DNA of 64,000 nt from the NCBI RefSeq assembly GCF_018326265.1, contig NZ_AP023360.1, positions 3,525,501 through 3,589,500 on the forward strand, given 5' to 3'. This stretch comes from Catellatospora sp. IY07-71. Lineage in GTDB: Bacteria; Actinomycetota; Actinomycetes; Mycobacteriales; Micromonosporaceae. Shown piece by piece: positions 36,623 through 62,243 of the stretch. The stretch's first letter is position 1. Every line of letters starts with the position of its first letter. The notes below the pieces were generated by a model. It saw nothing but the letters and a program-made list of their open reading frames with translations, did no database searches and was not told where the DNA came from. The position numbers and the translations under genes are program-made.

Positions 36623-37518
36623 CACGACTCCTGAAAGACGCCGACGGCGGCCTGAACCTGCGTGGACAAACGGTGTGGCGAGTGCTCCCGCAGCTGCCGC
36701 AGGTCTGCGACGGTGCGGCCGGGGAACAGGCTGTGGATCAGATTCTGGAAGGTCTCACCGAGGCTGTCCTCGTCGAACTTCGACTCGTCGGTGAAGTCGG
36801 GATGGTGTAGCGCCGCCTCGACCATCAGCCGTGCCACGTCCGCGTACACGGCATCCAGGATCACCTTGTCGACGGCCTTCGGCGCCGCCGCGCGCTGGAA
36901 TGCCTGCACCGTCGCCTTGCTGCGTTCGTTGATGTAAAGCAGCAGCGTTCCCATGGTGGCGCTCTCCAGCTGGCTGCCGAGTTCCAGATGCCAGCTGGCG
37001 TTGTCGGGAAACGTCGTCCGCGTGAAGTCCACGATGGCGATGGGGAACTGGGGCGCGTCGCCCTGCAGCCGTACCTTGTGCTCGTCGGACCACAGCACGG
37101 ATCCGCTGAGCCGGGGGGCGAGCGGGTCCTCCACGGTGCCGGGGTCGGCGACGGTCAGCAGGGTCCGCAGCGTGACGGTGCCACCGAGTAGCTCTCCGGG
37201 CAGCTGTACCTCAAGGTCTGCCTTCTGGCGCCCCTCGCGGTGCAGGGCCACGGCTCCCGCAGACTGGCGCAGGTTTGATCCGGAAGCGGTCCAGATCACC
37301 GTCATCTGGAGCGTGGCGTCGGATGGCAGGCGGACCTCGCTGCGAAGCATGTCCGTGTCGACGGTGATCTGTCGGCCCAAGGACAGGTTGGTGCGGTAAT
37401 CCCAGTGCGGCAGCGACGCCGGCAGGTCCGTCGGCCCTTCGTCGAGGACGAGCTGCCAGGTATCCGCGGTAACGGTCTCGGTCGAAGGTCGGCGGTACGG
37501 CCAGATCTGACGCCTCAT
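36622..37518 (-). CDS. Unknown protein of the Z1/GHKL defence module
   Basis: 298 aa from ATG 37518, within an ATGA overlap with the GHKL gene. It begins RRQIWPYRRPSTETVTADTW. The N-terminal 200 residues look beta-rich; the C-terminal 100 are helical, with AVDKVILDAVYADVARLMVE and SLGETFQNLIHSLFP. I see no Walker, zinc or PD-(D/E)XK signature strong enough to name. Strict coupling to the GHKL and DUF6339-like genes suggests a dedicated subunit of one complex. Confidence 0.7.
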   Translation of the reverse strand: MRRQIWPYRRPSTETVTADTWQLVLDEGPTDLPASLPHWDYRTNLSLGRQITVDTDMLRSEVRLPSDATLQMTVIWTASGSNLRQSAGAVALHREGRQKADLEVQLPGELLGGTVTLRTLLTVADPGTVEDPLAPRLSGSVLWSDEHKVRLQGDAPQFPIAIVDFTRTTFPDNASWHLELGSQLESATMGTLLLYINERSKATVQAFQRAAAPKAVDKVILDAVYADVARLMVEAALHHPDFTDESKFDEDSLGETFQNLIHSLFPGRTVADLRQLREHSPHRLSTQVQAAVGVFQES

Positions 37519-39482
37519 CGGGCACCTCCGGCGGCGACATGGAGCTCGATCTCGGTGATGGTGTGGGCGGCGGGGCGCACCACGACCTGCCAGATGCGGT
37601 CGTCCCCGCCTTCCAACTCGGCAACGGTGCTGTTGATGAAGCGGCCGTCGTTGCTGCGCCAGCCGAGCACGATCGGGATGTCGGCGGCGGCGGGTGCCTG
37701 GGTCTCGCGGGTGGCGCTGCCGGCGATGACCACGTTCAAATCGGCCCGCACGCACTGCGATCCGGAGACCGGAAGGGTGAAGGCCTGAATGATCACCGGA
37801 ACGCCGTCAAGGTGATCGAGCAGGGCGTCGCCGACGTAGGCGAGCGTCGGGCGTCGTGGGACCGATCGGGTCGACCGAGAGGCCGTGCCCGGAGGCTCCC
37901 AGCGGTGGTCGGTGTCGGATCCGTCCAGAGTTCCGCCGGTTCCGACCTGCACCGCCTCGCGTTCGCCGACCTCGAAGCCGGCCGCCGCATCATCCGGCGA
38001 CCCGGGCAGGGCGGCCGGCTGTGCCGCGACGGGTCGTCCGCCGCCGTAATCGGTGGCGCCGCCCGCGCCCCATACTCCTGCGATCAGGCCGGAGAACATG
38101 CTGCTGGCGGCCCCGAGTGGCACAGCCGCCGAGCTGCTGCGGACAACGGTGCCAGCCTGGTTGAACTCGTCGAGCGTCTCCCGGATGCGCTGGAAGGTCA
38201 TGCGGATGAAGGTGCGCTCCTCACCCTCCAGCTGGTCGGCGATCCAGTTGTCGTGCGTGGGAGGTTCGGCCTTCGCATACACCTCGTCCAGCGCCTCGTG
38301 CGCACGAAACACCCCGGCGTATCCGACCTTGTCAGACAGCGGCTTAGGGCCTGGGAGATACCGCACCACCAGTTCAGCGGGGCGCATCAGGCAGACATGG
38401 TGTACACCCTGGTCCAGCCCGGCCGTCGCCGCCGCGGGAGTGGCCGGCAGCGGCATCATGAGTCGCTTCGCCATCCCGATGCTGCCCAGTTCACGGCGGG
38501 GTCGATAACAGTGCAGCCTGGTGGCGTCCAGCTGGACGGCCGCATCGTACGCCTCCACGAACATGTCAAGTGGCGCGGTGGAGCGGGGATCCGGCACGGG
38601 AATCTCGACGCCGTCGTGGCTGACGCCGAAGCGCATCGGAGCCGGCTGGTTCGGGGTGTCGAGCATCTTCGGCCACAACTGCCACGTCATTGACTGCGCC
38701 AGATAGTTCGCGGCCTCGGCCGGTGTCTGCTCGTCGTAGAACGGGTCGACGATGACGATGCTGGTGCCGGTCTCGTCCGGTCGGAACTGCGCCAGGCCGA
38801 GTTGCTTGGCGGCGTTGACCGCGTCCTCGTCTATGAGCGGCTCCACCACACCGTCGGCCCCGCGCCGCCCCCACCAGTGGCGCCCGGTGTGCCGCACCGG
38901 TCCCGTGGGGTGCTGGGCGGTGTAACTGTGCCAGAGCGAGCATCCGATAAGCCTGGTCTGGTATCCGGTCTCGGTCTGGCAGCGCGTATGCACGAGGATG
39001 GTGCCGGATCGGGAGAGCAGGTAGAAGATGCCCTTGCCGAAGCCGTAGGTGCCGCCGCCGAGGGCCTTGTCCCGAGGCTCGCCGGCGTTGCGGATGAAGG
39101 AGACGAAGTCCCGCACGCTGCTCGTGGCGTCGTCGGCGCGGGTCGGCCCGCCCAGCCCCGTGGTGCCTCGATCCGACACCGTCAGCGTGTGGATGACCGG
39201 ACTGGTGATCGCCTTCCGGAGCGGCAGCTGGTCCTGTTGGGGCGCGTGCCGCAGCAGCAGGTCCCGCCAGTTGCCGGCATGCGCCGGGCTGACCGCGGAC
39301 AGGTCGATGCGGAAGTCGACGGGGCCCGAACCTGCCCTGGCGTCCCAGCTGTTCTGCGCGGCCTCGCGAACCAACACCGTGAGGTGGTCGAGCTCGGGAC
39401 GGCCGAGCTGGTTCCGGATGCCCTCGGCTGCGGTGGCGCCTTCCGGCGGGTATGGCTGTGAGAGCCATCCGATGTCGGTCAA
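37515..39482 (-). CDS. GHKL (HSP90/MORC-like) ATPase
   Basis: About 655 aa. I chose TTG 39482 because GAGGAG lies 6-7 nt upstream; an in-frame ATG at 39587 adds an Arg/Pro-rich tail that overlaps the Z1 gene and looks non-coding. The Bergerat fold is clear: N-box LVREAAQNSWDARA (about 36), DRGTTGLGG (about 100) and GGGTYGFGKGIFYL (about 145). A long C-terminal part has no known enzyme signature. This matches the prokaryotic paraMORC-type ATPases described in restriction-modification-like operons together with Z1, Dcm and Vsr proteins. It probably acts as an ATP-driven clamp. Confidence 0.8.
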   Translation of the reverse strand: MTDIGWLSQPYPPEGATAAEGIRNQLGRPELDHLTVLVREAAQNSWDARAGSGPVDFRIDLSAVSPAHAGNWRDLLLRHAPQQDQLPLRKAITSPVIHTLTVSDRGTTGLGGPTRADDATSSVRDFVSFIRNAGEPRDKALGGGTYGFGKGIFYLLSRSGTILVHTRCQTETGYQTRLIGCSLWHSYTAQHPTGPVRHTGRHWWGRRGADGVVEPLIDEDAVNAAKQLGLAQFRPDETGTSIVIVDPFYDEQTPAEAANYLAQSMTWQLWPKMLDTPNQPAPMRFGVSHDGVEIPVPDPRSTAPLDMFVEAYDAAVQLDATRLHCYRPRRELGSIGMAKRLMMPLPATPAAATAGLDQGVHHVCLMRPAELVVRYLPGPKPLSDKVGYAGVFRAHEALDEVYAKAEPPTHDNWIADQLEGEERTFIRMTFQRIRETLDEFNQAGTVVRSSSAAVPLGAASSMFSGLIAGVWGAGGATDYGGGRPVAAQPAALPGSPDDAAAGFEVGEREAVQVGTGGTLDGSDTDHRWEPPGTASRSTRSVPRRPTLAYVGDALLDHLDGVPVIIQAFTLPVSGSQCVRADLNVVIAGSATRETQAPAAADIPIVLGWRSNDGRFINSTVAELEGGDDRIWQVVVRPAAHTITEIELHVAAGGAR

Positions 39483-39540
39483 CGTGGTCTCCTCGCGATA
39501 GAGCCCCGGGCGGGGGAGAGCCGGCGGGGTGGGCGGGCGG

Positions 39541-42081
39541 TCAACTTTCCTCCGTCTCCAGCCCGGCGAGGTCTTCCTCCTCGACATGCAGACCCGCCAG
39601 GTTGGCGCTGACGTACTCCCGTTCGACCGCGCTGTCAGACTCCCGCGGCTCGGGGAACACCAGGCCCACGCCGATCACGTGGTCAGTGGCCTGGAGCGGG
39701 TGGCGGTCGGGGCGCCTGGTCGGTGAGTGTCGGTCGATGGCGTACAACGTCAACAGGCCGTGGTCGGGAAGCTGCACGCGGCGAAGCTTCTTGATGGCAT
39801 CCTCGGAAAGCTCGCCGCTGCGATCGACGACGAGGTCGACAGCGGCGTCGCGCCGGCTCATCAGGGTCTTGATGTCGGCGACATCGGAGTCAGGGTCGAG
39901 CCGGGACCGGGTCACCCGACCGACGGCGATTCCCGGGGCGAACTCGAAACCTTCGGCATCGGAGGTCGGATTGCCGATCAGAGCGATGTTCCACTGCCGC
40001 AGGGCGCGCTGGTCGCCGCGCTTGCGGATGTAGGCACGGATCAGGGCCGAGTCGCACTCCTGTGAGCGGTCGTGGAATCGGTAGCCGTCCAGGAAGTCGA
40101 GGATGAGCTCATGGGGAACGTCGCGCAGCAGGACACGATCACGTGCCCTGTCGCGGTCGACCCGACAGCCGCGGGTGGCGGCCAGTTGAACCAGGCGCCT
40201 CGCATGCCGCTGGTTTTCCTGCAGCCAGGCGACGTCGTGGACCGGGAAGTAGCGTGTCTGCACCCGCTGGCCGCCGTAGGCCGCAGCCGCCTTCACGGCG
40301 CTCTTCATCTTGGCGGCCGCGGTGACGAGCAACGCGGGATGGGTGCGAATGCGAACGGCGAAGTCCAGCGGTGTCTTGTCCTCGGTCATGTAGACGTCGA
40401 TGTCTCGTCGCATCTCGGCCTCGACGGAGGCGAGATGGCGGAACCATTCGCGCAGCTCCCGCGTCATCCAGATACGCGGAAGGTCGGCGTAGCCGTTACG
40501 GAAGCCGAACCACCGGCCCATCTGTAGCAGGGTGTCGTACGCCGACACCGAGCGCACGAAGTAGCTCACGCACAGGCCCTCCAGGGTCAGGCCTCGCGAC
40601 AGCGTGTTGCCGCCGACCGCGATGGCGATGACCGGGCCGTTCTCATAATCGAGGCGATCGTTGCTGGTCGAGTTGTCCATGATGACCCGGCAGCGGTCAA
40701 TGACCTGTGGAAGGTATGGCAGCAGGGTGTCGAACGGGATCGCTTTCTCGCCGAAATCCTCCGCCGACACCCGACCGCACTCGCTCTCCCAAAGTCTGCG
40801 CAGGTCGGCGAGGTCGTCGCCGGCGACCTCGTGCGCGAGCGACCGGAGCAGATCCCGCAGCGGCGCGTCGAAGCTCTGATGCACCGACGTGCTCACGCTG
40901 GTGTGGATGAGCATCGTGCTGTGCGGGTTGCCGGTGCCGCGCGCCGTACGGGCCGCGGTGGCCATGCAGAAGTAGGCCACGGCGGTACGCAGGCTGTCCG
41001 TCATCTCCGGTGCGAAGTCATCGGCCTCGCCCTTGGCGGGGCGCAGCAGGTCCACGTCGTCATCGGGCACGATGCGAACCATGTCGTGGCCCGCGGGAAC
41101 ATCAGCGGGATCCTCGTGGTCCTGCACCTCCCTGCCGAAGATGACCTCGGGGCCGAAGTACCGGTCGGGACGGGGGAGATTGACCACGAAGTGTTCCGGG
41201 TAGAGGTCCCGCGCCGATGGATCGATCAGCAGGTTGGCGAAGGGGGTGGCTGTGTAACCGACATAGCAGGCCTTGGGCAGGCGGTCCAACACCCCGCGGA
41301 TCAACGGGTTGATCGTCCGGGTGGCCACCGTGGCCTGGTCGGCCTCGTCGTCGATGACGAGAGCCGGGGCGTTGCCGAGGAAACCGCGCGCGGAGTCGAG
41401 CCAGCGCGTGAACTTGCGCAGGACGGTGGGGTTCTTCTTGACCACACACAGGACGTACTGGTGATTCGCGTCGTTGAAGAATGCCGCGGCGTTGGCCGGG
41501 GGTGAAAAGTCGCGATCCGGGTCGGTGAGCTGGTGCCACAGCAACGGATTGGGCCTGACCAACTGCTCCTGCAAGCGCAGTTGGGTCTGCCGACGCAGGC
41601 CGTTGTGGATGCCGGCCAATACGATGAACAGCTTGTAGCCCCGGTCGGCGGCTTTGGCGAGCACCGAGGTGAAGTTCGTGGTCTTGCCCGACTGCACGTA
41701 TCCGACGACCAGGCCCCGAACGGCGAAGGCCTTCTCCCTGGGGTGGCTCATCAGGGCCAGCACCTTGGTCGAGGCGTCGTCGAGTGACTCCAGCGCCGAT
41801 TCGTTCCACCCGTCGCGGCGCAGCAGCGTCTGCAACGCGGGCCAGCACCGGTCACCCTTACGCGGGCCCGTGTACCAGGTGAAACGGTTGTTCAGCACCA
41901 CCGATCGCGGCTCCCGCAGGTCGCGTACCGCAAGAGTGTCCTGCTCGTATCGTTCCAGGATGCGCTCGATGACGGCCGGGTCCAGGGCGAGAGTCTCCAG
42001 CATGTCCCGCGCAGCGGCGGGTGTGTTCTGCTGTGCCAGCGTCAGGAACACCTGATACTGCTGGTCGAAGGCGGTCGACAC
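39541..42081 (-). CDS. Z1 domain-containing ATPase/endonuclease-like protein
   Basis: 846 aa from GTG 42081. It has P-loop GYVQSGKTTNF (about 128), the Walker B-like VIDDEADQAT (about 240), YTATPFANLL, and late motifs GGNTLSRGLTLEG and MGRWFGFR, as in the Z1 family, an SF2-related ATPase found with R-M-like systems. It is the first gene of the - strand module. GHKL ATPase follows after 58 bp. vsr starts divergently 131 bp away. Expected role: DNA translocation or cleavage in antiphage defence. Confidence 0.88.
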   Translation of the reverse strand: MSTAFDQQYQVFLTLAQQNTPAAARDMLETLALDPAVIERILERYEQDTLAVRDLREPRSVVLNNRFTWYTGPRKGDRCWPALQTLLRRDGWNESALESLDDASTKVLALMSHPREKAFAVRGLVVGYVQSGKTTNFTSVLAKAADRGYKLFIVLAGIHNGLRRQTQLRLQEQLVRPNPLLWHQLTDPDRDFSPPANAAAFFNDANHQYVLCVVKKNPTVLRKFTRWLDSARGFLGNAPALVIDDEADQATVATRTINPLIRGVLDRLPKACYVGYTATPFANLLIDPSARDLYPEHFVVNLPRPDRYFGPEVIFGREVQDHEDPADVPAGHDMVRIVPDDDVDLLRPAKGEADDFAPEMTDSLRTAVAYFCMATAARTARGTGNPHSTMLIHTSVSTSVHQSFDAPLRDLLRSLAHEVAGDDLADLRRLWESECGRVSAEDFGEKAIPFDTLLPYLPQVIDRCRVIMDNSTSNDRLDYENGPVIAIAVGGNTLSRGLTLEGLCVSYFVRSVSAYDTLLQMGRWFGFRNGYADLPRIWMTRELREWFRHLASVEAEMRRDIDVYMTEDKTPLDFAVRIRTHPALLVTAAAKMKSAVKAAAAYGGQRVQTRYFPVHDVAWLQENQRHARRLVQLAATRGCRVDRDRARDRVLLRDVPHELILDFLDGYRFHDRSQECDSALIRAYIRKRGDQRALRQWNIALIGNPTSDAEGFEFAPGIAVGRVTRSRLDPDSDVADIKTLMSRRDAAVDLVVDRSGELSEDAIKKLRRVQLPDHGLLTLYAIDRHSPTRRPDRHPLQATDHVIGVGLVFPEPRESDSAVEREYVSANLAGLHVEEEDLAGLETEES

Positions 42082-42212
42082 GTCTGGGGCCTTCCGGTGG
42101 TTACTGTCGGTGCGCGGTGAGCTTACCGAAGGATGTTGCCCGGAGGAGGCTCGGCCGATCGGACCATGAGTGCGGCACGATCAGATCTTGGGCCAGGCGT
42201 TACGCTCGAATT

Positions 42213-42650
42213 GTGGTGCAGGCGAAGGATGCCGGCTGGGCATCGAGTGAGGCCGTACGTCGATGCATGCAGGCCAACAAGGGTCGTGACACGCGCCCCG
42301 AGCTGTTGCTGCGTTCGGCGGTGCACGCGCTCGGGATGCGATACCGGGTGTCCATGCGACCGCTGCCGGGCGTCCGGCGTACTGCTGACCTCGTATTCAC
42401 TCGCGCGAAGGTGGCCGTGTTCCTCGACGGCTGCTTCTGGCACGGCTGCCCGGAGCACCATACGAAGGCCAAGACCAATGCCACGTTCTGGGCGGAGAAG
42501 GTGGAGCGCACGAGGCAGCGAGATCAGGAGACCGATCTGCGGCTCATCGAGTCGGGTTGGCTGCCCCTGCGGGTGTGGGAACATGAGCAAACAGCGCAGG
42601 CTGCTCAACGCGTGGTGAACGTGGTGCGTGAGCGGACGGCAGCCCGGTGA
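42213..42650 (+). CDS. vsr: Very short patch repair endonuclease (Vsr-like)
   Basis: 145 aa from GTG 42213 (or GTG 42216). A TACGCT -10-like box lies 6 nt upstream, so the mRNA may be leaderless. Family core: MQANKGRDTRPELLLR, ADLVFTRAKVAVFLDGCFWHGCPEH with the Asp and His residues of the active site, then KTNATFW and RVWEHE. Vsr nicks next to T:G mismatches arising by deamination of 5-methylcytosine, so it offsets the mutagenic cost of the adjacent C5 methyltransferase. It is convergent with that gene and overlaps its 3' end by 107 bp. Confidence 0.93.
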   Translation: MVQAKDAGWASSEAVRRCMQANKGRDTRPELLLRSAVHALGMRYRVSMRPLPGVRRTADLVFTRAKVAVFLDGCFWHGCPEHHTKAKTNATFWAEKVERTRQRDQETDLRLIESGWLPLRVWEHEQTAQAAQRVVNVVRERTAAR

Positions 42651-43895: not shown

Positions 43896-45704
43896 TCAGG
43901 CATTGGCCTCCAGATAGCTGTTGAAGAAACCCGCGTTCGGGTGGTCCGGCCAGCCGATCAACAGACCGCGGTCGAGCAGGGTGTTGTTGTGCTCACAGCT
44001 CGTCTCGGGCAGCAGGGAGCACACGTGACATGCGGCGAGATTCAGGCTGTCCGCACCTGCGGCACCCGCCTCCATGCACAGCGGATCGGCCGAGCACCAC
44101 CCGGCGCGACGGAGCGCGGCGGTCACCGTTCGTGACAGGCGCTCGGGCTCGCCTTGGCGGACGATGCCGCCGAGGCTGCCGGCCGAGTCACTCGTGGCTG
44201 TGTAGATCAGGATGCCTGCCATGTCGTCGCCGGTGTAGAGACGCTCCCGCATGGCGGCGGCTGAGTATCCGGCATCGAGGCTCCACTCGTTGATCAAGGC
44301 GTGGGCCAGCGTGTGAATCATCACCGATCGGGCGGTGACCGGCGACGGAGTGCTCTGCCGCCCGGCCGTCTCGGCCCGCCGGTCGAGTAGCTGCTGGTGG
44401 TTGTCGCGGATCCGACGTGCCCGGTCGCGCACCCGGAAGTCGTTCTCCCAGACCTTCAAGGCCTGCTCGGACAGGCGCAGGAAGACGCCCTCACCGACCA
44501 CCTCCATAGCGGGCAGCCAGTTGAGCGAGCCATGCGAGAGCGCACCGCGCCGGGAGAGCGGATCCGTCGCGGTGAGCGGCTCGACCCGGCTGAAGGTCTG
44601 CAACACCCTGACCTCGCGCAGCCGGGTCACCAACATGACCTGGCTGAACTCCGTTCCCGGGGGATTTCCGGCGGCGGGCCTGCATTCGAAGTCGGGAGTC
44701 TCCTCGTCTGCGGGCGCAGGCGCACACAATTGTGCGAACTCCTCCGCTTTGAGCTCGGTTTCGAGATCGACCTCGGCGGCGGGCTGTTCCTGGTCCTCAA
44801 GCTGTTCGCGACGGCGTACCGCATCAATGATCGCCTGAGGATCCTCTCCCTCCTTGATCAGTCCTGCCTTGACCGCCTGGCGTGCGATCGTCTTGTCCTC
44901 CTCGCCGGCCCACATCGCGAAGTGCGGGTCGATCAGTTTCTGCAGCCGGGTCGACCACGGCGGAATGGCCAGCGACGAGCGCACCGCGCCGAACCAGGCG
45001 GCGGAGGAACCGCGCTGCAGCGTGCGCGGAGGTCGCTTGCAGCCGTCCACCTTCGCGCCGGGGCCGAGCCAGGGGCGTGCGCCCGAGCAGGTGATGCGGA
45101 GTTTGAGCAGCTCGCTGCGGCGGAACGCACCCTCCATGGAGGCACGAGCGCCGCATCCGCAGACGATCTCGATCGACTTCAGCGAGGCCGTACGCCCGCT
45201 GGTCACCATTCGCAGTTCGCGCTTGCACGGACCGGTGGCGGTGCTCCCTCGATGGGCCCAGGCCCAGTAGGGGAAGTCGTCGATGTGCCCGTCATCGCAG
45301 GCGATCACGAAACGCGAGGGAATGAGTGTGCCGCCGCAGGCGCAGGTCGACTCGCGGCCGCCGAACCGGCCGTACGGCTGCAGCAGGGAACAGCCCTGAC
45401 AGGAGTAGAAGTCGGGGAATCTGCGCAGGGCCGCGGCGTGGCGTCGATCGGCGGCCGGGGGCAGGTAAAGGCGGGCGACGCCGAGCGCCCGCTGGATGCG
45501 GGGCTCGTGCACCTGCTGCGCCTGGTTGATCTTCCAGTCGTCCAGGCCCGCGACGATGTATGACGCGTCCTCGACGGCGATCATCGAGCCGACCCCATAT
45601 GTGGTGATCAGCTGGGCACGTCGCACCTTGCCGATGGTGGAGATGCCCGGTGCCTCCACGGAGCTGCCAGCTGCGGTGCGCCGGGGCCGGTTCTGGGTGC
45701 TCAT
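43896..45704 (-). CDS. drmB: DrmB-like DUF1998 protein (DISARM-associated)
   Basis: 602 aa, starting in an ATGA overlap with the helicase gene. The N-terminus GKVRRAQLITTYGVGSMIAV is typical of DrmB. Several Cys pairs (CQGCSLL, CACGGT, CGCGA) suggest zinc binding. The C-terminal DUF1998 region has HTLAHALINEWSL, GILIYTATSDSAGSLGGIV and a terminal Cys cluster (CHVCSLL, CEHNN). DrmB acts with the DrmA helicase to load on and restrict incoming DNA in DISARM. No DrmC phospholipase-D gene or DrmE follows, so the locus is a variant. Confidence 0.88.
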   Translation of the reverse strand: MSTQNRPRRTAAGSSVEAPGISTIGKVRRAQLITTYGVGSMIAVEDASYIVAGLDDWKINQAQQVHEPRIQRALGVARLYLPPAADRRHAAALRRFPDFYSCQGCSLLQPYGRFGGRESTCACGGTLIPSRFVIACDDGHIDDFPYWAWAHRGSTATGPCKRELRMVTSGRTASLKSIEIVCGCGARASMEGAFRRSELLKLRITCSGARPWLGPGAKVDGCKRPPRTLQRGSSAAWFGAVRSSLAIPPWSTRLQKLIDPHFAMWAGEEDKTIARQAVKAGLIKEGEDPQAIIDAVRRREQLEDQEQPAAEVDLETELKAEEFAQLCAPAPADEETPDFECRPAAGNPPGTEFSQVMLVTRLREVRVLQTFSRVEPLTATDPLSRRGALSHGSLNWLPAMEVVGEGVFLRLSEQALKVWENDFRVRDRARRIRDNHQQLLDRRAETAGRQSTPSPVTARSVMIHTLAHALINEWSLDAGYSAAAMRERLYTGDDMAGILIYTATSDSAGSLGGIVRQGEPERLSRTVTAALRRAGWCSADPLCMEAGAAGADSLNLAACHVCSLLPETSCEHNNTLLDRGLLIGWPDHPNAGFFNSYLEANA

Positions 45705-48700
45705 CGTCGGCCCTCCCGGGGCATCAGGTCGGTTTCCACGTCTACGTCACGCAGGCTGTTCATGGTTCTGAACGAGTGGGGCAGATCGTCGTCCTCGAAG
45801 TTGCGCAGCAGCGCGGCATGGTCGGGCCGCCTTTTCGGATCACCGGACCATTTGGCCTTGTGATACACAAGGTCGGCATTCCAGTCGACCATCTCCTCCC
45901 ACCGGCTGATGATGTCGGCGAGGTGATCGGCCGTCGCCTCACGCTCATCCGGCGCCACCCGGGAGACGCGGTCGACGATGCGGTCTGCCAGCGCCTCAAG
46001 CTCGGGCCTGAAATCGTCCAGCGCGCCGGCGGCGGCGTTGGCGCGGGCGGCCGGCAGCGTCAGCCGGGCCGCACCGATCAGGGCGGCGTGCAGTCCCCGG
46101 TCCCGGGCGCGCGCCGAGAACGGCGTGACACTCGTGGACTCCACCTGCCGGTAGAGCGCGGAGTGGTAGGACCGGAAGTTCTCGTAGTGAGAGCGGTCGC
46201 GCGAACGGGCCGCGTTGTAGAGAACGATGACCAGGCCCGGATAACGTCGGCCCACCCGACTGGTCGCCTGGATGTACTCCGCCGTGGTCTGCGGCTGCCC
46301 GGTGACCGTCATTAGCCCGAGCCGGTTGACGTCCACCCCCACCGAGATCATGTTCGTGGCGAGCACCACGTCGAGTGCCGTCGGGTCCGGATGGCGGACG
46401 TCGAGCTGCCGGAGCCGGACGGGGATGTCGCTGGCGTCGGCGCGGCTGGTCAGCTCCGTCGTCTCCACCTCGCGCGGTCGGTCGTCACCGGCCAGCCGCT
46501 TGAGACGGCCCACCACGTCGTCGTTGACCTGCAGTTCCGCGGCGGCCAGCAGGCGCAGGCTGTTGAAGTAGCCGATCAACGTCCAGTAGGCGTCACGGAC
46601 CTCGTCCTTGCCGTCGATGATCGAGGCGTGGTGCAGCAGTGCCGCGTAGGCCCGCACCAGCAGCGTGGCCTGGCTGGTGCCCGGTGCGAAGAGCCCGACG
46701 TAACGACGTGACGGCTTGCGCTCGGGCGGCGCTTCGACGGCGAACCAGGAGTCACGGGCGTCGAGTCCGGCGGGCGGGAACTGGTGCACCTCCCGGTCGA
46801 ACAGGGCCTGGCCCTGTTCGCGGGCGCGCCGGATCGTCGCGGTGGAGGCGATCACCTTGGGGCGGTCCGCGGCGATGTCCAGCGCCGACTCGTATAGGCC
46901 GACCAGTGTCCCCAGCGGTCCGGAGATGAGGTGCAGCTCGTCCTGGATGATCAGCTCCGGCGGCGGGGCTCCCTCCGGTGCGCCGCTCCGGTTGAACAGC
47001 GCCGCCGGCTCGTCCTTCCAGGTGATCTGCGCGAACTTGTCGACGGTTGCGATGATCAACGTGGGACGGTGCTGGTAGATCGCATCGTCGACGAGGTGGA
47101 CCGGCAGGCCGTCCGCGAAGTCGCAGTCCGGGTTGCCGCAACCGACGTCGAGCCGCTGGTCGGCGCGGTTGACGCGGTAGTTGAGATGGTCCATGTCGAT
47201 GCCGCACCAGGGGCAGCGACGCAGCTGCACCGGGTTCTTCTCGCGCAACTTCTTTCCGTCCCGAAGCTCCTTCAAGCCAGCCTCGGCATCGCGGAGGTTG
47301 TTGGGCGTCGCACTCGCCCCGACCCACATCCCGATCGAGATCTCACCGCCCTTGAGGGTCGGGTCGCCGCGCCGGATGTCGTCCATGGCGCAGATCAGCG
47401 TCGCGGCGCGTTCGAACTGCTGCAACGTCAGCAAGCGGAGGGTGTATCGCATCAGCACCGTCACACCGCCACCCGCCTCCTCATGGCGGATCCGGCGCAG
47501 GAACACGGTAAGAGCGATCAGGCCGAGGTACGCCTCGGTCTTGCCGCCACCGGTGGGGAACCAGAGCAGGTCGGCCACCCCGCGGTCGTCGTGCTCGGGG
47601 TCGGCGATGCCGGCGAGGCAGATGAGGATGAACCCGATCTGGAACGGATACCACCGCCCGGCGGACAGGTCGAGGGTCGTGCTGTTCCCGTTCATCAGCA
47701 TGGTGCGGGCCCGCTGCACCGCCATCGCCTTGTTGGCCAGCCGGAAGGCACGCATGACGTCCGGGTCGCGGGCGAGCAGGTCGACGCCGGCGTTCATTCG
47801 GCCGTAGGCGATACGGCACTGCTTGAGCTGGTCGAGCGCGGCGGCGCCGTAGCGGGAGGAGCCCATCGCCTTGGCCTCGGCCTCGCGCTTGCGCAGCCAG
47901 TCGCCGTAGCCTTCGACAAGCCACACCAGGGAGCGCAACACCTGCTCGGGCGTGCCCTCCGCGAAGTCGTTCATGCCGAGGCCCGCGTCGTCGATCTCGG
48001 GGTTCGACTCCGACAGCAGCACATCGAAGCTCGGGGTGAAGGACGAGCGGACCTCCGCGACCGCCCGTCGACCCCGGGTGCCGTGGGCCGTCTCGTTCCC
48101 GGCGCCGGTCCAGTCCGCCGCGCAGCCGTGGCCGATGGCGAAGGTGGGGGCGTGGCGGTACAGCATGGCGGAGGTCAGCGCCTCGTCGTCGCTGAGGGAG
48201 GCGGCGGGCTGCTCCACGATCGCCGCGACGCCGTCAGCGGTGCCCACGGTCAGCGCGCACTGGAAGAAGCACCAGGGGTCGCGAAGCGGCCCCTCGCTCT
48301 GGTGGTTGTTGACCAGGCTGACGGTGACGGTCGACGTGTGCTGCGCGTCGTCCACGGCCCGCACGAGCACCCGCAGTTCAAGTCCGGGCACGACCTGCAC
48401 GGCGCTCGAACCGGGGCGGGACACGTCGATCAGCACGGACGTCGGGCCGACCTCCGATCGGCGCCACCTGATGGAGGAGTCGTCGGTCGAGCGCGCCGCC
48501 TCCATCTCCGCCGCGACACGCCTGCCGTCCTTGTCGATCGGCTCGTATGACCCGGCGCCGACCGACACGGTGAGTTCCGTGCACGCTCGTACATCGACGG
48601 CGAAGGTCAACCCCATGGAGGAGGGGCTCTGCTGATTGGCCATGGACACCCCGGTGTCCGGTTGCTCGTCCTTCTCCATGCGTGCTCCGGCCAGGTCGAG

Positions 48701-48889
48701 GTCGGCCTCGGCGGCGTCGTCAACGGTGTCCTCGGAGCGACGTTGCGGGAACAGCACACCGGTCAGATAGGTGCTGACCGGCGGATCCACGAGGACCTCG
48801 TCAGGACCGTCGACAGGGCCGAGCAGGTCGAGGACCAGACGGTCGGTCAGTTCATCCCGGAACCCGAGATGTTCGTCGAACTTACTCAT
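45701..48889 (-). CDS. drmA: DrmA-like SF2 helicase (DISARM)
   Basis: 1,062 aa. Walker A LWFPTGGGKTEAYLG (about 446), motif II IIQDELHLISG (about 648), ASTATIRRA, motif V ATNMISVGVD and motif VI QATSRVGRRYPGL (about 881). A four-Cys module CPWCGID...CGNPDC (about 561-596) lies between motifs I and II. The N-terminal 400 residues have no recognised enzyme motif. These features and DrmB next door identify the DISARM helicase. The start overlaps the UvrD-like gene by 8 bp (ATGAGTAA), so the two are translated together, which is not part of the described DISARM sets. Confidence 0.88.
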   Translation of the reverse strand: MSKFDEHLGFRDELTDRLVLDLLGPVDGPDEVLVDPPVSTYLTGVLFPQRRSEDTVDDAAEADLDLAGARMEKDEQPDTGVSMANQQSPSSMGLTFAVDVRACTELTVSVGAGSYEPIDKDGRRVAAEMEAARSTDDSSIRWRRSEVGPTSVLIDVSRPGSSAVQVVPGLELRVLVRAVDDAQHTSTVTVSLVNNHQSEGPLRDPWCFFQCALTVGTADGVAAIVEQPAASLSDDEALTSAMLYRHAPTFAIGHGCAADWTGAGNETAHGTRGRRAVAEVRSSFTPSFDVLLSESNPEIDDAGLGMNDFAEGTPEQVLRSLVWLVEGYGDWLRKREAEAKAMGSSRYGAAALDQLKQCRIAYGRMNAGVDLLARDPDVMRAFRLANKAMAVQRARTMLMNGNSTTLDLSAGRWYPFQIGFILICLAGIADPEHDDRGVADLLWFPTGGGKTEAYLGLIALTVFLRRIRHEEAGGGVTVLMRYTLRLLTLQQFERAATLICAMDDIRRGDPTLKGGEISIGMWVGASATPNNLRDAEAGLKELRDGKKLREKNPVQLRRCPWCGIDMDHLNYRVNRADQRLDVGCGNPDCDFADGLPVHLVDDAIYQHRPTLIIATVDKFAQITWKDEPAALFNRSGAPEGAPPPELIIQDELHLISGPLGTLVGLYESALDIAADRPKVIASTATIRRAREQGQALFDREVHQFPPAGLDARDSWFAVEAPPERKPSRRYVGLFAPGTSQATLLVRAYAALLHHASIIDGKDEVRDAYWTLIGYFNSLRLLAAAELQVNDDVVGRLKRLAGDDRPREVETTELTSRADASDIPVRLRQLDVRHPDPTALDVVLATNMISVGVDVNRLGLMTVTGQPQTTAEYIQATSRVGRRYPGLVIVLYNAARSRDRSHYENFRSYHSALYRQVESTSVTPFSARARDRGLHAALIGAARLTLPAARANAAAGALDDFRPELEALADRIVDRVSRVAPDEREATADHLADIISRWEEMVDWNADLVYHKAKWSGDPKRRPDHAALLRNFEDDDLPHSFRTMNSLRDVDVETDLMPREGRR

Positions 48890-50729
48890 CGTCGTGCTCC
48901 GTATCGTTGCGGTGGTATCGGAACGAGCTGAGCCCGGTCAACCTCGGCGCCAGCCAGACGCCGTGTTCGCCCAGGCCGACGCGTCGCCCCTGCGCCGCCC
49001 CGCCGGCCACGGCCTCGACATCGTCGATCCAGCAGTTGGTCATGGCACTCGGCCAGCTCGCGTGCTCGGGCAGGCGGGCCGCAGAACGGTACATGTACCG
49101 GGCGAGATCCATACGGAAGCCGCGTGAGACGACGCCGATGGGTCTGCCGCCGTGGGTTACGGCGTACGCGGGCACTGCCAGGTCGTCGTCGGGCATCTGC
49201 TCGAGCACGGTCAGCATCACCGGATCTCCCGGCCTCACCTCTCGAGCGAGGTAATCCTGAAGTTCCAGCGGGTCGGCGGTGAACCCCTCGGTCCCCGCGG
49301 GACGGTCGGCGCTGACGTCGCCGCCCGACAGCGCCAGTCCGAGCCGGCGACCCGCGAACTGGAACTGGTATCGGCCCCACCGTCCGGAGTGGCGGCAGGT
49401 CTTGGCATAGACCTTCGACCGGGGCAGCGGATCCAGCCGGAAGAAGTCGTCACGGCACCGGGTCATGGCCATGTACAGCAGGCGCGCATGCTCCATCTCG
49501 TCGGAGTCCTCAGGCACGGTGTCCTCGAGCAGGAACACCCGGTCGTACTCGAGACCCTTGGCCCGGTGCATCGACGACACCGTGAGCGCGGCGGTGTCGG
49601 TGGCGCAGACGGCGCGCGGCAGCCTGCCGCCTGCCACGATCGTGCGAAGCCTGCCGAGATCGAGCCGGCTGCTCCCGGTCCGGGCGACCGTCAGCAGGGC
49701 TGGCCACACCACGTCGAGCGGCTCGCCGGTCAGCCCGGTGTGCTCGGCGAAGTCGTCCCGATCGACGCTGAGCCCGCGGTGGTCGCGAAAAAGGGGAACG
49801 AGCCAACGCGGGTTGACCTCGTCATGGGCGCGACGCTGCAGCCGATGGTCCGCCCCGGCGCGGTGCAGCTCGGCCGACACGTCGAGCGCCTGTCCGTTGG
49901 TCCGACACAGAATCGCCGTGGTGCCGTCGAAATGGGGGAACCCGTCGACGATGTCGGTAAGCCGTCCCGCGCCCGGGGAGCCTGCGAACTCGTCACGGAT
50001 CTGCTTCGCCAACGCGGATCCCGAGCCGCCGATGGTGCGCAGCGCCTCACCGCAGCGGAGGATGCCGTCGGGTCGGGGCGTCCGTGCCCGAAAGTCGCGG
50101 GTGAGGGCCAGTTCGACCAGGTCATCAGAGTAGGTCTGCCGGGCCCAGGTGAACATGTCCCCGTCGTCGTCGGGGCGGCCTCCATCACGTACCTGAAATC
50201 CGTAGATGGCCTGCGCCGGGTCCCCGACAATGGTGAACCCGCAGTCCAGCCAGGTAAGCAGCGACTTGACAAGTTCACGTCGGTCGCCCTCCAGGTCCTG
50301 CACCTCATCGAGCAGGACATGCTGCACTCGCGCGGTGTACTCGTCGGCCTGGCCCGAGACGACGACCTCGATCGCGGCTGCGATGCGTTCGTCGAACGAG
50401 CGGTGGTGCCAGTCCTCCGCCGCGCGGGTGTGCACGAGCAGGTCGAGTGCCCAGGCGTCAAAGGTCCGGGCGACGACGAAGCGGCTGCTGCCGGTGGAGG
50501 CCCTGGCTCGGGCGGCGAGTTCGCCGACCGCCGCCCGGGAGAAGGACAACACCAGGATCTCGTCGGCCACCAGATCGTGCTCCAACAGGTGCTCGATCCG
50601 CCGGACGAGGGTATGCGTCTTGCCGGTGCCGGCCGCCGCGATGATCAGCAACCGGGTGTCGGCGGGCTGTCGGACAGCCTCCTGCTGCTCGGCCGTCAAG
50701 GCCGAGGCCACTGTGCCTACGGTGTTCAT
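48882..50729 (-). CDS. UvrD/Rep-like SF1 helicase of the DISARM-like operon
   Basis: 615 aa from ATG 50729 (ATGA overlap). Walker A AAAGTGKTHTL (about 28), motif Ia LSFSRAA, motif II VLLDEVQDLEG (about 141), motif III GDPAQAIYGF, motif V SSMHRAKGLEYDRVF (about 390) and motif VI LLYMAMTRCRDD. It is shorter than UvrD and carries a roughly 170-residue C-terminal extension of unknown role. It lies between the GHKL-helicase fusion and drmA in a chain of overlapping genes, so it is likely a subunit or accessory of the same defence system rather than a repair helicase. Confidence 0.85.
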   Translation of the reverse strand: MNTVGTVASALTAEQQEAVRQPADTRLLIIAAAGTGKTHTLVRRIEHLLEHDLVADEILVLSFSRAAVGELAARARASTGSSRFVVARTFDAWALDLLVHTRAAEDWHHRSFDERIAAAIEVVVSGQADEYTARVQHVLLDEVQDLEGDRRELVKSLLTWLDCGFTIVGDPAQAIYGFQVRDGGRPDDDGDMFTWARQTYSDDLVELALTRDFRARTPRPDGILRCGEALRTIGGSGSALAKQIRDEFAGSPGAGRLTDIVDGFPHFDGTTAILCRTNGQALDVSAELHRAGADHRLQRRAHDEVNPRWLVPLFRDHRGLSVDRDDFAEHTGLTGEPLDVVWPALLTVARTGSSRLDLGRLRTIVAGGRLPRAVCATDTAALTVSSMHRAKGLEYDRVFLLEDTVPEDSDEMEHARLLYMAMTRCRDDFFRLDPLPRSKVYAKTCRHSGRWGRYQFQFAGRRLGLALSGGDVSADRPAGTEGFTADPLELQDYLAREVRPGDPVMLTVLEQMPDDDLAVPAYAVTHGGRPIGVVSRGFRMDLARYMYRSAARLPEHASWPSAMTNCWIDDVEAVAGGAAQGRRVGLGEHGVWLAPRLTGLSSFRYHRNDTEHDDE

Positions 50730-53700
50730 TCGCCACCCCACATCTTCTCGAAGGCGGTGAACGCGAGCTGCTGTCCGTAGTTGACGATGTTGTCGCGCAC
50801 GTTGAGGATCAGGCAGCGTTCCTTGCCGCCGTTGGCCTGGCCGCGCAGACCACGGCCGATCATCTGCTGGTAGACGTTCGGGCTGTACGTGGGGCGGGCT
50901 ACCACGACCGCTCGCGTGGCGGGCGCGTCGAAGCCCTGGTGGAGGACGCCGTAGTTGGTCAACACCCGGATACGTCGCGTGGCGAACTGTTCGATGATCT
51001 GACGACGCCGGGCCGTCGGGGTCTGCGCGTCGACCGCCGCGGAGGTCACGCCCCTGTCGTTCAGCATGACCGACAGGAACCGTGCGTGATTGACGGAGGT
51101 GGCGAACACCAGCACGGGCCAGTCCGGATCGAGCTCACACAGCGCTTCCAGGAGAACGCCGTTGCGCACGTGATCGTCGGCCAGGCGCTGCTCGGCGCCC
51201 GGCGGCAGGGTTCCGCCGTGCAGCTGAGACATGTGCGACATCTCCTCGTCGGTCAGTCGCAGCGTGCCTCCCTCGAGGACGCGGTGGTCGACATGAGCGA
51301 GCACGCGCATTCGCTGCAGCGCCGGGTAGGGTTCGCCCTCGAAGAGGTTGTCGTCGAGCCTGGTGGCTCCGTAGCGGTTCACCAATCTGCGGGTCTCGTC
51401 CTCGCTGCGGCCCCTGAAGGGTGTGGCGGTCAGACCGATCAGCGGCCGGGCGGTGCGCATCGGCTGCTGCGTGAGGCCGAACCTCTCGAAGACCCGGGTG
51501 TAGCTCGGCGACGTCGAGCCGTGCGCCTCGTCAACGATGACCAGGGCCGGTGTGTGTAGCCAGGCGTACGCGGGATCGTCGAGGTTGGCCGTCAGTTTGT
51601 CGATGGTGGCGACGACCAGGTGAGGGTTCTCGGTCACCGGGGTGGCCTCACGGGTGCTCCAGAATCGGCTGATGGTCAGCCGAGTGCGGGCGGCTCCGGC
51701 CTTCTCCCAGACATAACGCCAGCTCTGCACCGCCTGCTCACACAACTCGTCAGACTGGGCGATCCACAGCACGGGGCCGGGCAGACCTCGCTGGCCGTGC
51801 TCCTTGATGTAGCGGATGACGGCCTCGGCGGCGACCCGGGTCTTGCCGGCGCCGGTCGGCAGGCTGAGCATGGCCCGCGACGGCGGCTGCTGCATGAGCA
51901 TCCGGTGCATGCGCGCGGCGAGCGTCTCCTGATAGTCGTGGAGGGGGAAGTGCGGGGTCGGTCCCGGGACCTGCTCGGTCGCGCTGACCGGGTCCTCCCC
52001 GACGCCCGCGTAGTTGTCCGGGAGGCCCAGGTCGGCCACCGCTCTGCGGGACTTGGTGTCGCCGGTGAAGCGGACGTTCAGGGCCTCGTGGCGCTTCTCG
52101 AGGTCCTTGCGGTGGTGTCGGAGGATACCGTCACCGTGGGCGTGCAGCGCCAACTCGGTCACGCGCCGATCATCGGGCTCCTGCCCGCTGTTGGTTCGCT
52201 CCCAGGCCAGGACGCCCTCGGGCAGGCCGGACTGCAGTTGGTCGCGTCCGATCAGCAGGAGCAGCTTGCTGATGTTGTCCCGGGCGGCGCGCACCGCCTT
52301 GAGGACATCGTTGTTTCGCGCCTCATCCGCGCGCTGGAGAACGGTGTTGATCTCCATGGACGACAGGTGCAGGCCGAGTTCCCGGGAGATCACGCCGAGC
52401 AACGCGGCCTTGTCCGTGGTCTGGCGGACGTAGACGACGTTGTCCCGGGAGGCGATGTCCAGCTGGTGGGTGCGCATACCCAGTGGGGTCCGCGTGACCT
52501 CGTCGAGTTCGCTGCACTGAACGAACGTCCAGCCGTCGGCCTTGCGCCCACGCAGCAGACGGATGTGCGCGAACTCGGCCACGACCGCAACCGGCTCGGT
52601 CTCCTCGACCTTGCGCAGTTCACGGCTGACCATCTCGGCGTACCGACGCATGCCCCAGGTCTGGATCATCGCATCGACGTCGGCGGTGGTCGGGGCGAGC
52701 AGCGCTGGCACGTTCTCCCGGACGAGCGTCTGATACTCGTGCGGGTTCGCGGTGACGCAGATCTGGTCGTCAGGGCGGGTGCCCCACTTCGCGCCGATGC
52801 GGCACCGGGTGTCACCACCGGGCCACTCCGCCCCGGCTCGCAGAACCAGGGCGTAGGCCCGGCCGGGCACGGCGTCCTCCTCCGTGGTGGCGACCCTGGT
52901 AACCAGCTGCTCCCAGAGCACGCCCGGGATGTCGGTGATCGTCGCCGGAAGATCCAGCAGGTCGGCGACGGCACGATCGATCTGCGCCACGGGCAGGATG
53001 TCGCGATACTCGACGAGCGACGGCCCGACGGCTGACCTGACGGCGACGGTTCCCTCGTTCGTCTGCACACGCCCGTGCTTCTTGGCCATCCACACCAGGG
53101 GCGAGTCCACCTGCGCGTGTTGTGTCTGGCGGTTGGCGCGAGCCGTCCAGTCCCGTACCAACCCACCGGGCGGCAGGTGCTTGAGGAAGAGGCAGCGTCC
53201 CTCCTCGCTCAGCGCGGGCAGCAGCCCGAGCGGTCCGGCCGGGTTGGCACCCTCCACCACGGTGTTGGACGCCTTGGGATACGGCACCCCGGCGGGCAGC
53301 GCGGCGCACATCGCCTCCAGGGCGGCCGCCTGATACTGGTCAAACCACTCGTCCTGGCGTGGATCGAGGTCGGCCACCGGAACGTCCGACATGCCCAGCG
53401 CGGTCAACAGCGCGCGGTCGGCTGCATGGGTGCCGAGGTCGACGGTGACGCCCCTGTCTCGGCTGCCGTCGGTCGGGACGACGCGTCCCGGCAGCAGGCA
53501 TTCGACCGGCCTGCGGTGGCGGCCGTCCAGCGTGCGGACCCTGATCTCACGACGCCAGCCCGGAATACGGGTGCGTATCGCGTCAGCCGCCTCCTGCGCC
53601 GGGACCCTGCGGCACAGCTTCCAGAAGTCGTTCCACTCCTGCTCGAAGTAGCGTGCGAACCCCTTGTCCAGGACTGCGGCCAGGCGGCCGGCGGCATTGG

Positions 53701-55393
53701 CCTCTCGTACCCCGAGTTCGTTGAGCGCGGCGGAGACGGCGTCCAACTCGGTCACCCGCGGGTCGACGTACACCAGGTCGTCATCGAGGCCGTCCTGGTC
53801 GCTGCGGCGGAAGACGCCACCGGCCTTCGCCGGGACCATGCCGCACGACTCGGTGAGGATGATCCGCGCCCGCAGGGCGTCCGCGGCCTGGCTGTGCCCG
53901 CAGCGAACCATCGCCGCCACGATGAGGATCGCCCGCGCCGAACCTTCGGGGCGGCCGTCGGCCACGAGTGCCTCCAGCCACTCGCGCACCGAGGCCTCCG
54001 GACGTCCGGCCTTGTCGAAGATCAGATTGGCCTTGGCGCGGCGTTCGCGGTTCTCAATGGACTTGTGAGTCCAGTCCATCGGACGGCCGTCATAGCCGGA
54101 CCACATCGCCAGCCAGTCGTCGATCATGCCGTCCGGGGTCAGGTTCAGCTGATCCGGTCGGCGCAGCTCCCCGTTCTGGTCGGGGATCGACGGACGTGAC
54201 GCCGCAGCCTTCCAGACCGCGTTGGTCAGCCGCTCGTCAGCCCACTGCGGTGCCTCGCGGCCTCGTCCAGGCAGCAGCATCAGGTAGGAACCAGGGTCCG
54301 CCGGCTGGACGAGGTATGGCAGGGACTCGACGACAAGTTCGGCCGCCCGCTCGATCAGCTCGTCGTTGAACGCGTTGTGATCGAACAGGTTCTGTCGATC
54401 CTCGCCTGTCTTCCAGGGGGCGTTGAGCAGGCCGCGCAGCGTGGTCGCGTAGTTGGTGGGGAAGTAGGCCCAGAAGGTGCCGCGGCCGCCGCCGCTGCCC
54501 TGCGGCACGGCCCACGCCAGATCGATCTCCGGGCGGTCGTGCAGCTCGCCTGCGCTGCGCAGCGCGGTCACCGAAGGCCGATGCGAACACCGGAAGACGT
54601 TCCACACCGAGGTGGTCTGCCTGCCGTCCTCACCCGGCCCCTGCAGCGTGTGCAAGGTGTCGCTGGCCTTAACCGACATCACACGGTGCAGCGTCCGGCC
54701 CGGGCGACGATCCTCCAGGTGCAGGTGTGCCACATGCGGGGAAAACAGCTGGAACTCCGACGGGAAGCTGCGCAGGTCGGCTCCGAGTCGCTCGGCGCTG
54801 CCGGGAGTGAGCGGCAGCCTCACCACCGTGACCGCCCGTGCCAGCAACTCGTCGAGGATCCGGTCCTCAGTCCGGGCCTGCTGCGTCTCGATAGGGCGGG
54901 CCAGGCGCAACACCGGGGTCTCGACCACGTCAGGGGCCACCGAGCGAATGCGTGAGGCAGCCCAGTCCCGGTCGAACCCGAAGGACCCGGTCGAGCTGTA
55001 GAACTCGGGGGCGTCGCTGACGCTGAGCACCGACTTGACGCCCACCCCGAACCGCCCGATCTGCCCGCCCCGTTTGCGGGAGACGCTCATCCGCAGGATC
55101 GTGTCGGCGCCGTCGGGCGTCATGGGATTGCCCGTGTTCGCGCAGTAAAGGTAGTGCTCGGTCAGAATCACCCGGATCTCGCCCTCGCCGAGCGTGCGCA
55201 TTTCGTCCGCACCGTTCTGCACGAGCTCGTAGATCTGACGCTCACCGTAGCCGCCCTGGTTGATGCGGCGCTCACCATTGGCGTGTTCCTGAATAAGTCC
55301 TTTGTCGATGCGGTAGGTCTCCAGGACGCGGCTCGACTGCTCCTCGACGACCTGGCGAACCGTCTTGCCTGACATATCAGCCGTGGAGGTCAT
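50726..55393 (-). CDS. Giant GHKL ATPase-SF2 helicase fusion (sacsin-like N-terminus)
   Basis: 1,555 aa from ATG 55393 (AGGA 6 nt upstream; in-frame extension to 55468 looks non-coding). N-terminal Bergerat fold: QIYELVQNGADE (about 57), YCANTGNPMT, GGQIGRFGVGVKSVL, as in sacsin/HSP90-type modules. About 900 residues follow without a named motif. The C-terminal SF2 helicase has LPTGAGKTRVAA (about 1178), VIVDEAHGS (about 1286), GLTATPFRG and QQMIGRGLRG (about 1511). It is the first gene of the operon leading to drmA, drmB and the methyltransferase. It may act as a large ATP-driven sensor or remodeller of foreign DNA. Confidence 0.85.
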   Translation of the reverse strand: MTSTADMSGKTVRQVVEEQSSRVLETYRIDKGLIQEHANGERRINQGGYGERQIYELVQNGADEMRTLGEGEIRVILTEHYLYCANTGNPMTPDGADTILRMSVSRKRGGQIGRFGVGVKSVLSVSDAPEFYSSTGSFGFDRDWAASRIRSVAPDVVETPVLRLARPIETQQARTEDRILDELLARAVTVVRLPLTPGSAERLGADLRSFPSEFQLFSPHVAHLHLEDRRPGRTLHRVMSVKASDTLHTLQGPGEDGRQTTSVWNVFRCSHRPSVTALRSAGELHDRPEIDLAWAVPQGSGGGRGTFWAYFPTNYATTLRGLLNAPWKTGEDRQNLFDHNAFNDELIERAAELVVESLPYLVQPADPGSYLMLLPGRGREAPQWADERLTNAVWKAAASRPSIPDQNGELRRPDQLNLTPDGMIDDWLAMWSGYDGRPMDWTHKSIENRERRAKANLIFDKAGRPEASVREWLEALVADGRPEGSARAILIVAAMVRCGHSQAADALRARIILTESCGMVPAKAGGVFRRSDQDGLDDDLVYVDPRVTELDAVSAALNELGVREANAAGRLAAVLDKGFARYFEQEWNDFWKLCRRVPAQEAADAIRTRIPGWRREIRVRTLDGRHRRPVECLLPGRVVPTDGSRDRGVTVDLGTHAADRALLTALGMSDVPVADLDPRQDEWFDQYQAAALEAMCAALPAGVPYPKASNTVVEGANPAGPLGLLPALSEEGRCLFLKHLPPGGLVRDWTARANRQTQHAQVDSPLVWMAKKHGRVQTNEGTVAVRSAVGPSLVEYRDILPVAQIDRAVADLLDLPATITDIPGVLWEQLVTRVATTEEDAVPGRAYALVLRAGAEWPGGDTRCRIGAKWGTRPDDQICVTANPHEYQTLVRENVPALLAPTTADVDAMIQTWGMRRYAEMVSRELRKVEETEPVAVVAEFAHIRLLRGRKADGWTFVQCSELDEVTRTPLGMRTHQLDIASRDNVVYVRQTTDKAALLGVISRELGLHLSSMEINTVLQRADEARNNDVLKAVRAARDNISKLLLLIGRDQLQSGLPEGVLAWERTNSGQEPDDRRVTELALHAHGDGILRHHRKDLEKRHEALNVRFTGDTKSRRAVADLGLPDNYAGVGEDPVSATEQVPGPTPHFPLHDYQETLAARMHRMLMQQPPSRAMLSLPTGAGKTRVAAEAVIRYIKEHGQRGLPGPVLWIAQSDELCEQAVQSWRYVWEKAGAARTRLTISRFWSTREATPVTENPHLVVATIDKLTANLDDPAYAWLHTPALVIVDEAHGSTSPSYTRVFERFGLTQQPMRTARPLIGLTATPFRGRSEDETRRLVNRYGATRLDDNLFEGEPYPALQRMRVLAHVDHRVLEGGTLRLTDEEMSHMSQLHGGTLPPGAEQRLADDHVRNGVLLEALCELDPDWPVLVFATSVNHARFLSVMLNDRGVTSAAVDAQTPTARRRQIIEQFATRRIRVLTNYGVLHQGFDAPATRAVVVARPTYSPNVYQQMIGRGLRGQANGGKERCLILNVRDNIVNYGQQLAFTAFEKMWGGE

Positions 55394-58851: not shown

Positions 58852-58882
58852 GTGTTTCGTCGCGCAACGGGGAAGGGCGCAG

Positions 58883-59986: not shown

Positions 59987-60045
59987 CGGCGATCGCCTGA
60001 GACGACGGACCGGACTGCCGCACTGTCGCGGCCTGGGGAGGATCG

Positions 60046-62199: not shown

Positions 62200-62210
62200 C
62201 ACGGCACAAT

Positions 62211-62240
62211 GGGCTCCGGTCCACCCACGGAACGGAGCCC
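62211..62240 (+). promoter_or_regulatory. Hairpin that buries the ribosome site of kinase 2
   Basis: GGGCTCCG (62211-62218) pairs perfectly with CGGAGCCC (62233-62240) around 14 nt. The 3' arm contains GGAG (62234-62237), the only ribosome-binding candidate for the GTG at 62244. It could limit translation of kinase 2 or end part of the upstream transcript. Confidence 0.5.
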
Positions 62241-62243
62241 GTC

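Follow-up and report, generated by a model that had tools for sequence, protein, structure and literature searches.

A DISARM-type locus of Catellatospora sp. IY07-71 linking DrmA and DrmB to a GHKL-helicase fusion, a UvrD-like helicase and a C5-methylation module

In DISARM of Serratia, DrmAB is autoinhibited and becomes activated by unmodified 5′-overhang DNA, and the phospholipase D (PLD) protein of DISARM, DrmC, is dispensable and frequently absent from annotated operons (PMC9142583). Many uncharacterised DISARM-like classes exist, according to the Figure 1 legend of Bell et al. (2025; PMC12458937). Here we describe a locus in a 64,000-nt stretch of the Catellatospora sp. IY07-71 genome (contig NZ_AP023360.1, positions 3,525,501 to 3,589,500; hereafter the window). 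It encodes DrmA and DrmB together with a UvrD-like superfamily 1 (SF1) helicase (U) and a fusion of a GHKL ATPase with a superfamily 2 (SF2) helicase (T), near a C5 methyltransferase, a Vsr-type endonuclease and a module of a stand-alone GHKL ATPase, a protein named g2 and a DUF6339 protein. We are moderately confident that these genes form one composite restriction-modification (R-M)-like anti-phage system, in which DrmA-DrmB, U and T serve as restriction arm to a MutL-like chassis for C5 methylation, made up of the C5 methyltransferase(s), the GHKL protein, g2, DUF6339 and Vsr. We regard the locus as a variant of DISARM-type, R-M-linked defence and not a new category.

Like DISARM of class 1 and class 2, the locus has DrmA and DrmB, both above the NCBI cut-offs; a C5 methyltransferase is present as well. 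In contrast to both classes, no DrmC was found among the PADLOC matches listed for nine window proteins, nor any DrmD (class 1 marker) or DrmE (class 2 marker) among the PADLOC and NCBIfam matches listed for them; T and U are added, DrmA falls in a separate supported clade, and there is linkage to GHKL-g2-DUF6339 and Vsr. With the uncharacterised DISARM-like classes and the ARMADA, BRIGADE and TALON systems of Bell et al. the locus shares YprA-family helicase defence. In ARMADA type II, too, a YprA helicase is coupled to a methyltransferase and a GajB/UvrD-like helicase, and a Vsr-type nuclease forms the C-terminal part of the ARMADA YprA proteins (PMC12458937), whereas here the helicase and the DUF1998 protein (DrmA and DrmB) are separate genes and GHKL proteins are present. 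BrxHII and PglX were not found (no PglX among the matches listed for the window proteins), and the terms Hsp90, HATPase, MORC and Tiamat are absent from the main text of PMC12458937. For the MORC/paraMORC ATPases encoded in prokaryotic R-M operons, Iyer, Abhiman and Aravind (2008) suggested a role in looping DNA between the sites of recognition and cleavage, and they invoked MutL-UvrD and Vsr (PMC2292703); the terms YprA and DUF1998 are absent from that main text, and the parts of it considered here name no DrmA/DrmB or T-like fusion. The locus has all partners raised by that work and the Serratia study: GHKL ATPases, UvrD, Vsr, C5 methyltransferase and DrmAB. Also among the closest known systems are mzaABCDE, a putative "type I" system (both from Miller et al., 2022; PMC9523054) and the PADLOC candidate PDC-M33. 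In contrast to mzaABCDE, there was no DUF4420 protein (MzaD) among window open reading frames (ORFs) of at least 80 residues and no AIPR match among the window proteins scanned. The N-terminal GHKL domain of T matches the PADLOC models labelled TmtA, which we take to be Tiamat; the match ends at that domain, T differs by its SF2 helicase and its linkage to DrmAB, and the full-length TmtA architecture was not found. The DISARM-associated ShdA is a further example of DISARM-like operons with additional genes inside, but it is an RmuC-type protein reported from Pseudomonas only, with genes unrelated to this locus (PMC10270631). Searches of open-licence papers gave no description of the T-U-DrmA-DrmB set, and this large phage-defence gene set is apparently undescribed.

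DrmA, DrmB and the two added helicases

An earlier note, made from the letters of this DNA, had claimed a DISARM-like core of DrmA, DrmB and a C5 methyltransferase, lacking a PLD gene. The core was confirmed: DrmA scored 990.2 bits with NF038325 (cut-off 950) and matched PDB 7s9v chain A at E = 1.2e-168, while DrmB scored 475.4 bits with NF038324 (cut-off 240) and matched chain B at E = 3.6e-80. The lack of a PLD gene also held, as neither a DrmC match (see above) nor an HKD motif in the window ORFs (34-64 kb) was found. A hidden PLD nuclease was rejected as well, since an HKD scan of the ORFs of 79 related loci gave none; one ORF with the motif lies about 6 kb from DrmB in locus L031.

To place DrmA, 85 of the 121 collected sequences, with close rows thinned, were used in a quick LG+G4 tree. 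The window DrmA lies in a starred clade of 47 rows (support 99) made up of 45 T-linked DrmAs and two others (L152 and L184), and a further starred group (99) consists of L197 and the five class 1 rows with DrmD. The node that unites these two groups has weaker support (88), and the window DrmA stands beside the class 1 rows, not within them. Since the only class 2 member in the tree is one haloarchaeal row on a long branch, the window DrmA may still belong to class 2; this lone row and other long branches (L198, L196, L187 and others) limit the deep structure of the tree. Four T-linked DrmAs with a NERD-SF1 helicase in the place of U fall elsewhere, with L028, in a second starred clade (99). 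Given the starred branches, the T label must have changed three times or more, so T was either joined to DrmAB on more than one occasion or repeatedly lost. In L184, a Tsukamurella plasmid (NZ_LR134452.1), UvrD-DrmA-DrmB come directly after a RelA/SpoT-like protein, and no T was found in that stretch.

The UvrD-like helicase and the large GHKL-SF2 fusion of the earlier note were likewise recognised. Residues ~10-445 of T are a sacsin/Tiamat-like GHKL ATPase (NF047352, 64.1 bits) and residues ~1150-1535 a RadD-like SF2 helicase (Pfam ResIII 74.2 bits, Helicase_C 51.8 bits); the long middle region has no family match. Profile matches in PDB include RadD (6jde) and sacsin (5v47), the TmtA models cover residues 13-469 (E = 1.4e-45) and the BrxH model is marginal (0.00052). 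The PADLOC, Pfam and NCBIfam scans were numbered on a 1,580-residue ORF, 25 residues longer than T itself, and the span 13-469 refers to that ORF. U scored 97.5 bits with Pfam UvrD-helicase and is GajB-like in PADLOC. A nuclease in the C-terminus of U or the middle region of T was considered and rejected, there being no D/E-x-K pattern among the conserved positions listed. In four loci a fusion of a NERD nuclease and an SF1 helicase replaces UvrD between T and DrmA (Pfam-tested in L031 and L033, a profile match in L035 and L037).

Linkage in other genomes

The physical linkage of these genes is conserved. Among the 79 loci, which are the best matches to T, both U and T are kept with DrmAB in 71, and the locus type is conserved over many genera. 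We also took an unbiased sample of 394 genomes from the class, source genome included; the protein searches scored the best two candidates per genome, so that second copies may be missed. DrmA matches at E 1e-60 were found in 59 genomes, DUF6339 in 24 and full-length T in 17 (18 loci, source included); the T search had given 19 genomes above threshold, from which G263 and G164 were dropped because they match the helicase part only. Since full-length T occurs in 17 of the 394 genomes, the locus type is no single-strain oddity. T lies within 16 kb of a DrmA at 17 of its 18 loci, the exception (G077) having T about 34 kb away in a different setting.

The two halves that the earlier note had joined also co-occur elsewhere: 11 of the 24 DUF6339 loci, against 0.02-0.08 expected under random placement, and 9 of the 13 GHKLb loci are within 16 kb of a DrmA. 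The same pairing was found in numerous bacteria related to the source, and one archaeon has it next to a set of DISARM-like genes; because it recurs in this way the halves probably work together. The locus is real and conserved, and it is probably one functional unit. The suggestion of an undescribed composite system is supported in part.

Other settings of DrmAB comprise NERD-SF1 helicases, sigma-70-like and AIPR genes (L134) and class 1 DISARM. In L134-L138 (G488, G502, G467, G516, G313), DrmA-DrmB are followed by a large ORF (936-1026 residues) and a C5 methyltransferase; the next genes in L134 encode a sigma-70-like protein (965 residues) and an AIPR protein, which recalls Mza-type parts joined to DrmAB. 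Surroundings were fetched for 6 of the 13 DUF6339 loci without a nearby DrmA. The large ORF that follows DUF6339 in G176 encodes an MMPL transporter, and no restriction arm was identified there. GHKL-type genes adjoin a NaeI enzyme, and AspBHI- and NgoFVII-like restriction enzymes, in L204 (G498) and L208 (G402).

The methylation module and the gene map

The C5 methyltransferase scored 215.2 bits with Pfam PF00145 and has the PCQG and ENV motifs; its best PADLOC model is DruM2 (5.4e-102), with DrmMII at 2.1e-46. Convergent with its gene and overlapping its 3′ end is a Vsr gene that the earlier note had missed (Pfam Vsr 68.2 bits, cut-off 27, on the ORF 42021-42650), in which D59, D72-GCFWHGCP and H82 are conserved in at least 90% of 61 rows. 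The stand-alone GHKL protein matches PDC-M33A (4.9e-10) and has EAAQNSWD and GGTYGFGK motifs; its start codon is uncertain, as the ORF in a second genome (L004) starts about 35 codons later. NF041933 gave 405.2 bits on a window protein, against 1500.

No Pfam or NCBIfam family matched g2 above cut-off. Its AlphaFold model, of moderate confidence (mean predicted local distance difference test, pLDDT, 74.9; predicted template modelling score 0.57), is an immunoglobulin-like beta-sandwich with a helical C-terminus, and the Foldseek matches are weak and mostly to beta-sandwich or immunoglobulin-like folds. DUF6339 scored 40.9 bits with PF19866 (cut-off 23.2); its model is essentially all-helical (mean pLDDT 86.2), with no PDB match at E 0.001 or better. 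Either protein as a nuclease was rejected, given these folds and no nuclease among the 50 matches listed for each, and because neither predicted fold is nuclease-like, both are probably adaptors.

Table 1. Genes of the locus, in coordinates of the window
Gene product	Position	Strand	Identification or remark
T, 1,555-aa fusion	50726..55393	-	GHKL ATPase, middle region, SF2 helicase
U, SF1 UvrD-like helicase, 615-619 aa	48882..50741	-	ATG at 50729 or GTG at 50741
DrmA, YprA-like SF2 helicase, short (DrmAS) form, 1,062 aa	45701..48889	-	NF038325, PDB 7s9v chain A
DrmB, DUF1998/MZB protein, 602 aa	43896..45704	-	NF038324, PDB 7s9v chain B
C5 cytosine DNA methyltransferase (DruM2-like), 397 aa	42544..43737	-	Pfam PF00145
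Vsr-type (very short patch repair) endonuclease, ~145 aa	42213..42650	+	Pfam Vsr; start inferred
GHKL (paraMORC/MutL-like) ATPase, stand-alone, PDC-M33A-like	37515..39587	-	PADLOC, motifs
g2, ~298 aa	36622..37518	-	start inferred from 4-bp overlap, as in L004
DUF6339 protein (PDC-M33C-like), 255 aa	35858..36625	-	Pfam PF19866

The defence-gene side of the window differs in composition from the left side, with a GC content of 65-70% from 36 kb onward vs. 69-76% (mostly 73-76%) over positions 1-36000. A separate cluster (57085-63695, + strand) encodes an N6 DNA methyltransferase (MTase_I/mad2-like), a Ser/Thr kinase (PD-T4-6/mad6-like), a kinase-TPR protein and a UvrD helicase that is extended far at its N-terminus; homologs of some of these adjoin T-U-DrmA-DrmB in L040 and L083, the nearest kin of the window after L039.

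Proposed mode of action and alternatives

As the locus has all these partners, we propose methylation-licensed loading of DrmAB, clamping by GHKL proteins and unwinding by U and T. What the sequences show is the gene content, the motifs and the conserved linkage; the joint function, each of the steps below and the defence role itself are inferred. The C5 methyltransferase, going by its family, would mark host DNA as self. DrmAB would load onto phage DNA that lacks methylation, and would probably do so at single-stranded ends, as has been shown for Serratia DISARM (PMC9142583). By analogy with MutL-UvrD in mismatch repair, and consistent with Iyer et al. (2008), the ATP-gated GHKL domains of T and of the separate GHKL gene would clamp or loop DNA and signal to the motors; U and the RadD-like domain of T, judged from their families, would unwind or strip DNA. 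As a result, replication would be blocked and/or the DNA would be cut, either by the enzyme with the Vsr fold or by host nucleases. Vsr is the only nuclease family recognised within the conserved gene set, and a live alternative is that it may only repair the G:T mismatches from 5-methylcytosine deamination, as a companion of the methyltransferase.

Several observations weigh against a single composite system. DrmB and the methyltransferase gene are separated in the window by 158 bp without coupling, and the Vsr gene is on the strand opposite to the other locus genes. The module has no DrmA nearby at 13 of 24 DUF6339 and 4 of 13 GHKLb loci, and T is near just 17 of 67 DrmA loci (split matches merged by hand), the other 50 being without it. 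No GHKL gene lies within the fetched stretch at 11 of the 79 loci, three of which are short or cut (L039; L061, at a contig end; L044): on the L039 contig a GHKL gene follows downstream in the longer stretch, L004, and L044 has g2 and DUF6339 at the stretch edge. Vsr was not found in 20 of the 79. These loci are kin to each other, two of them (L040 and L108) overlap on one contig and are both counted, and distance correlations carry no species-phylogeny correction; this uncorrected relatedness is among the weakest points of the case.

The same genes could be read as what is left of a canonical DISARM after loss of DrmC and DrmD/DrmE, the extra genes being passengers. Scores of DrmA and DrmB above the NCBI cut-offs would fit this, as would the dispensability and frequent absence of DrmC (PMC9142583). 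However, U and T are kept with DrmAB in the large majority of loci, and the window copy has the motifs; these DrmAs group in a clade separate from the class 1 rows, and the absence of HKD motifs from the ORFs of the 79 loci means that the lack of DrmC is not a recent single loss; we thus regard this explanation as improbable. Jointly, the MutL-like GHKL, UvrD, RadD-like helicase, C5 methyltransferase and Vsr also resemble mismatch- or short-patch-repair machinery, which might indicate a locus for DNA repair or genome maintenance with no defence role. Yet the spread of full-length T in the class is patchy, the module adjoins different restriction arms elsewhere and the DrmA and DrmB families are named for an anti-phage system, which makes a pure repair locus very improbable.

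If the composite defence system is real, DISARM-type helicases would extend beyond the two named DISARM classes, in a widespread actinobacterial form that does without DrmC, DrmD and DrmE, has a UvrD helicase and a GHKL-helicase fusion in addition, and is connected with C5 methylation and a MutL-like module. How DrmAB could act without DrmC would then have a testable answer, namely licensing in the manner of MutL together with the two extra helicases and a nuclease of the Vsr type, and three groups described separately would come into one frame: DISARM, MORC/Mza-type R-M and Tiamat-like GHKL systems.
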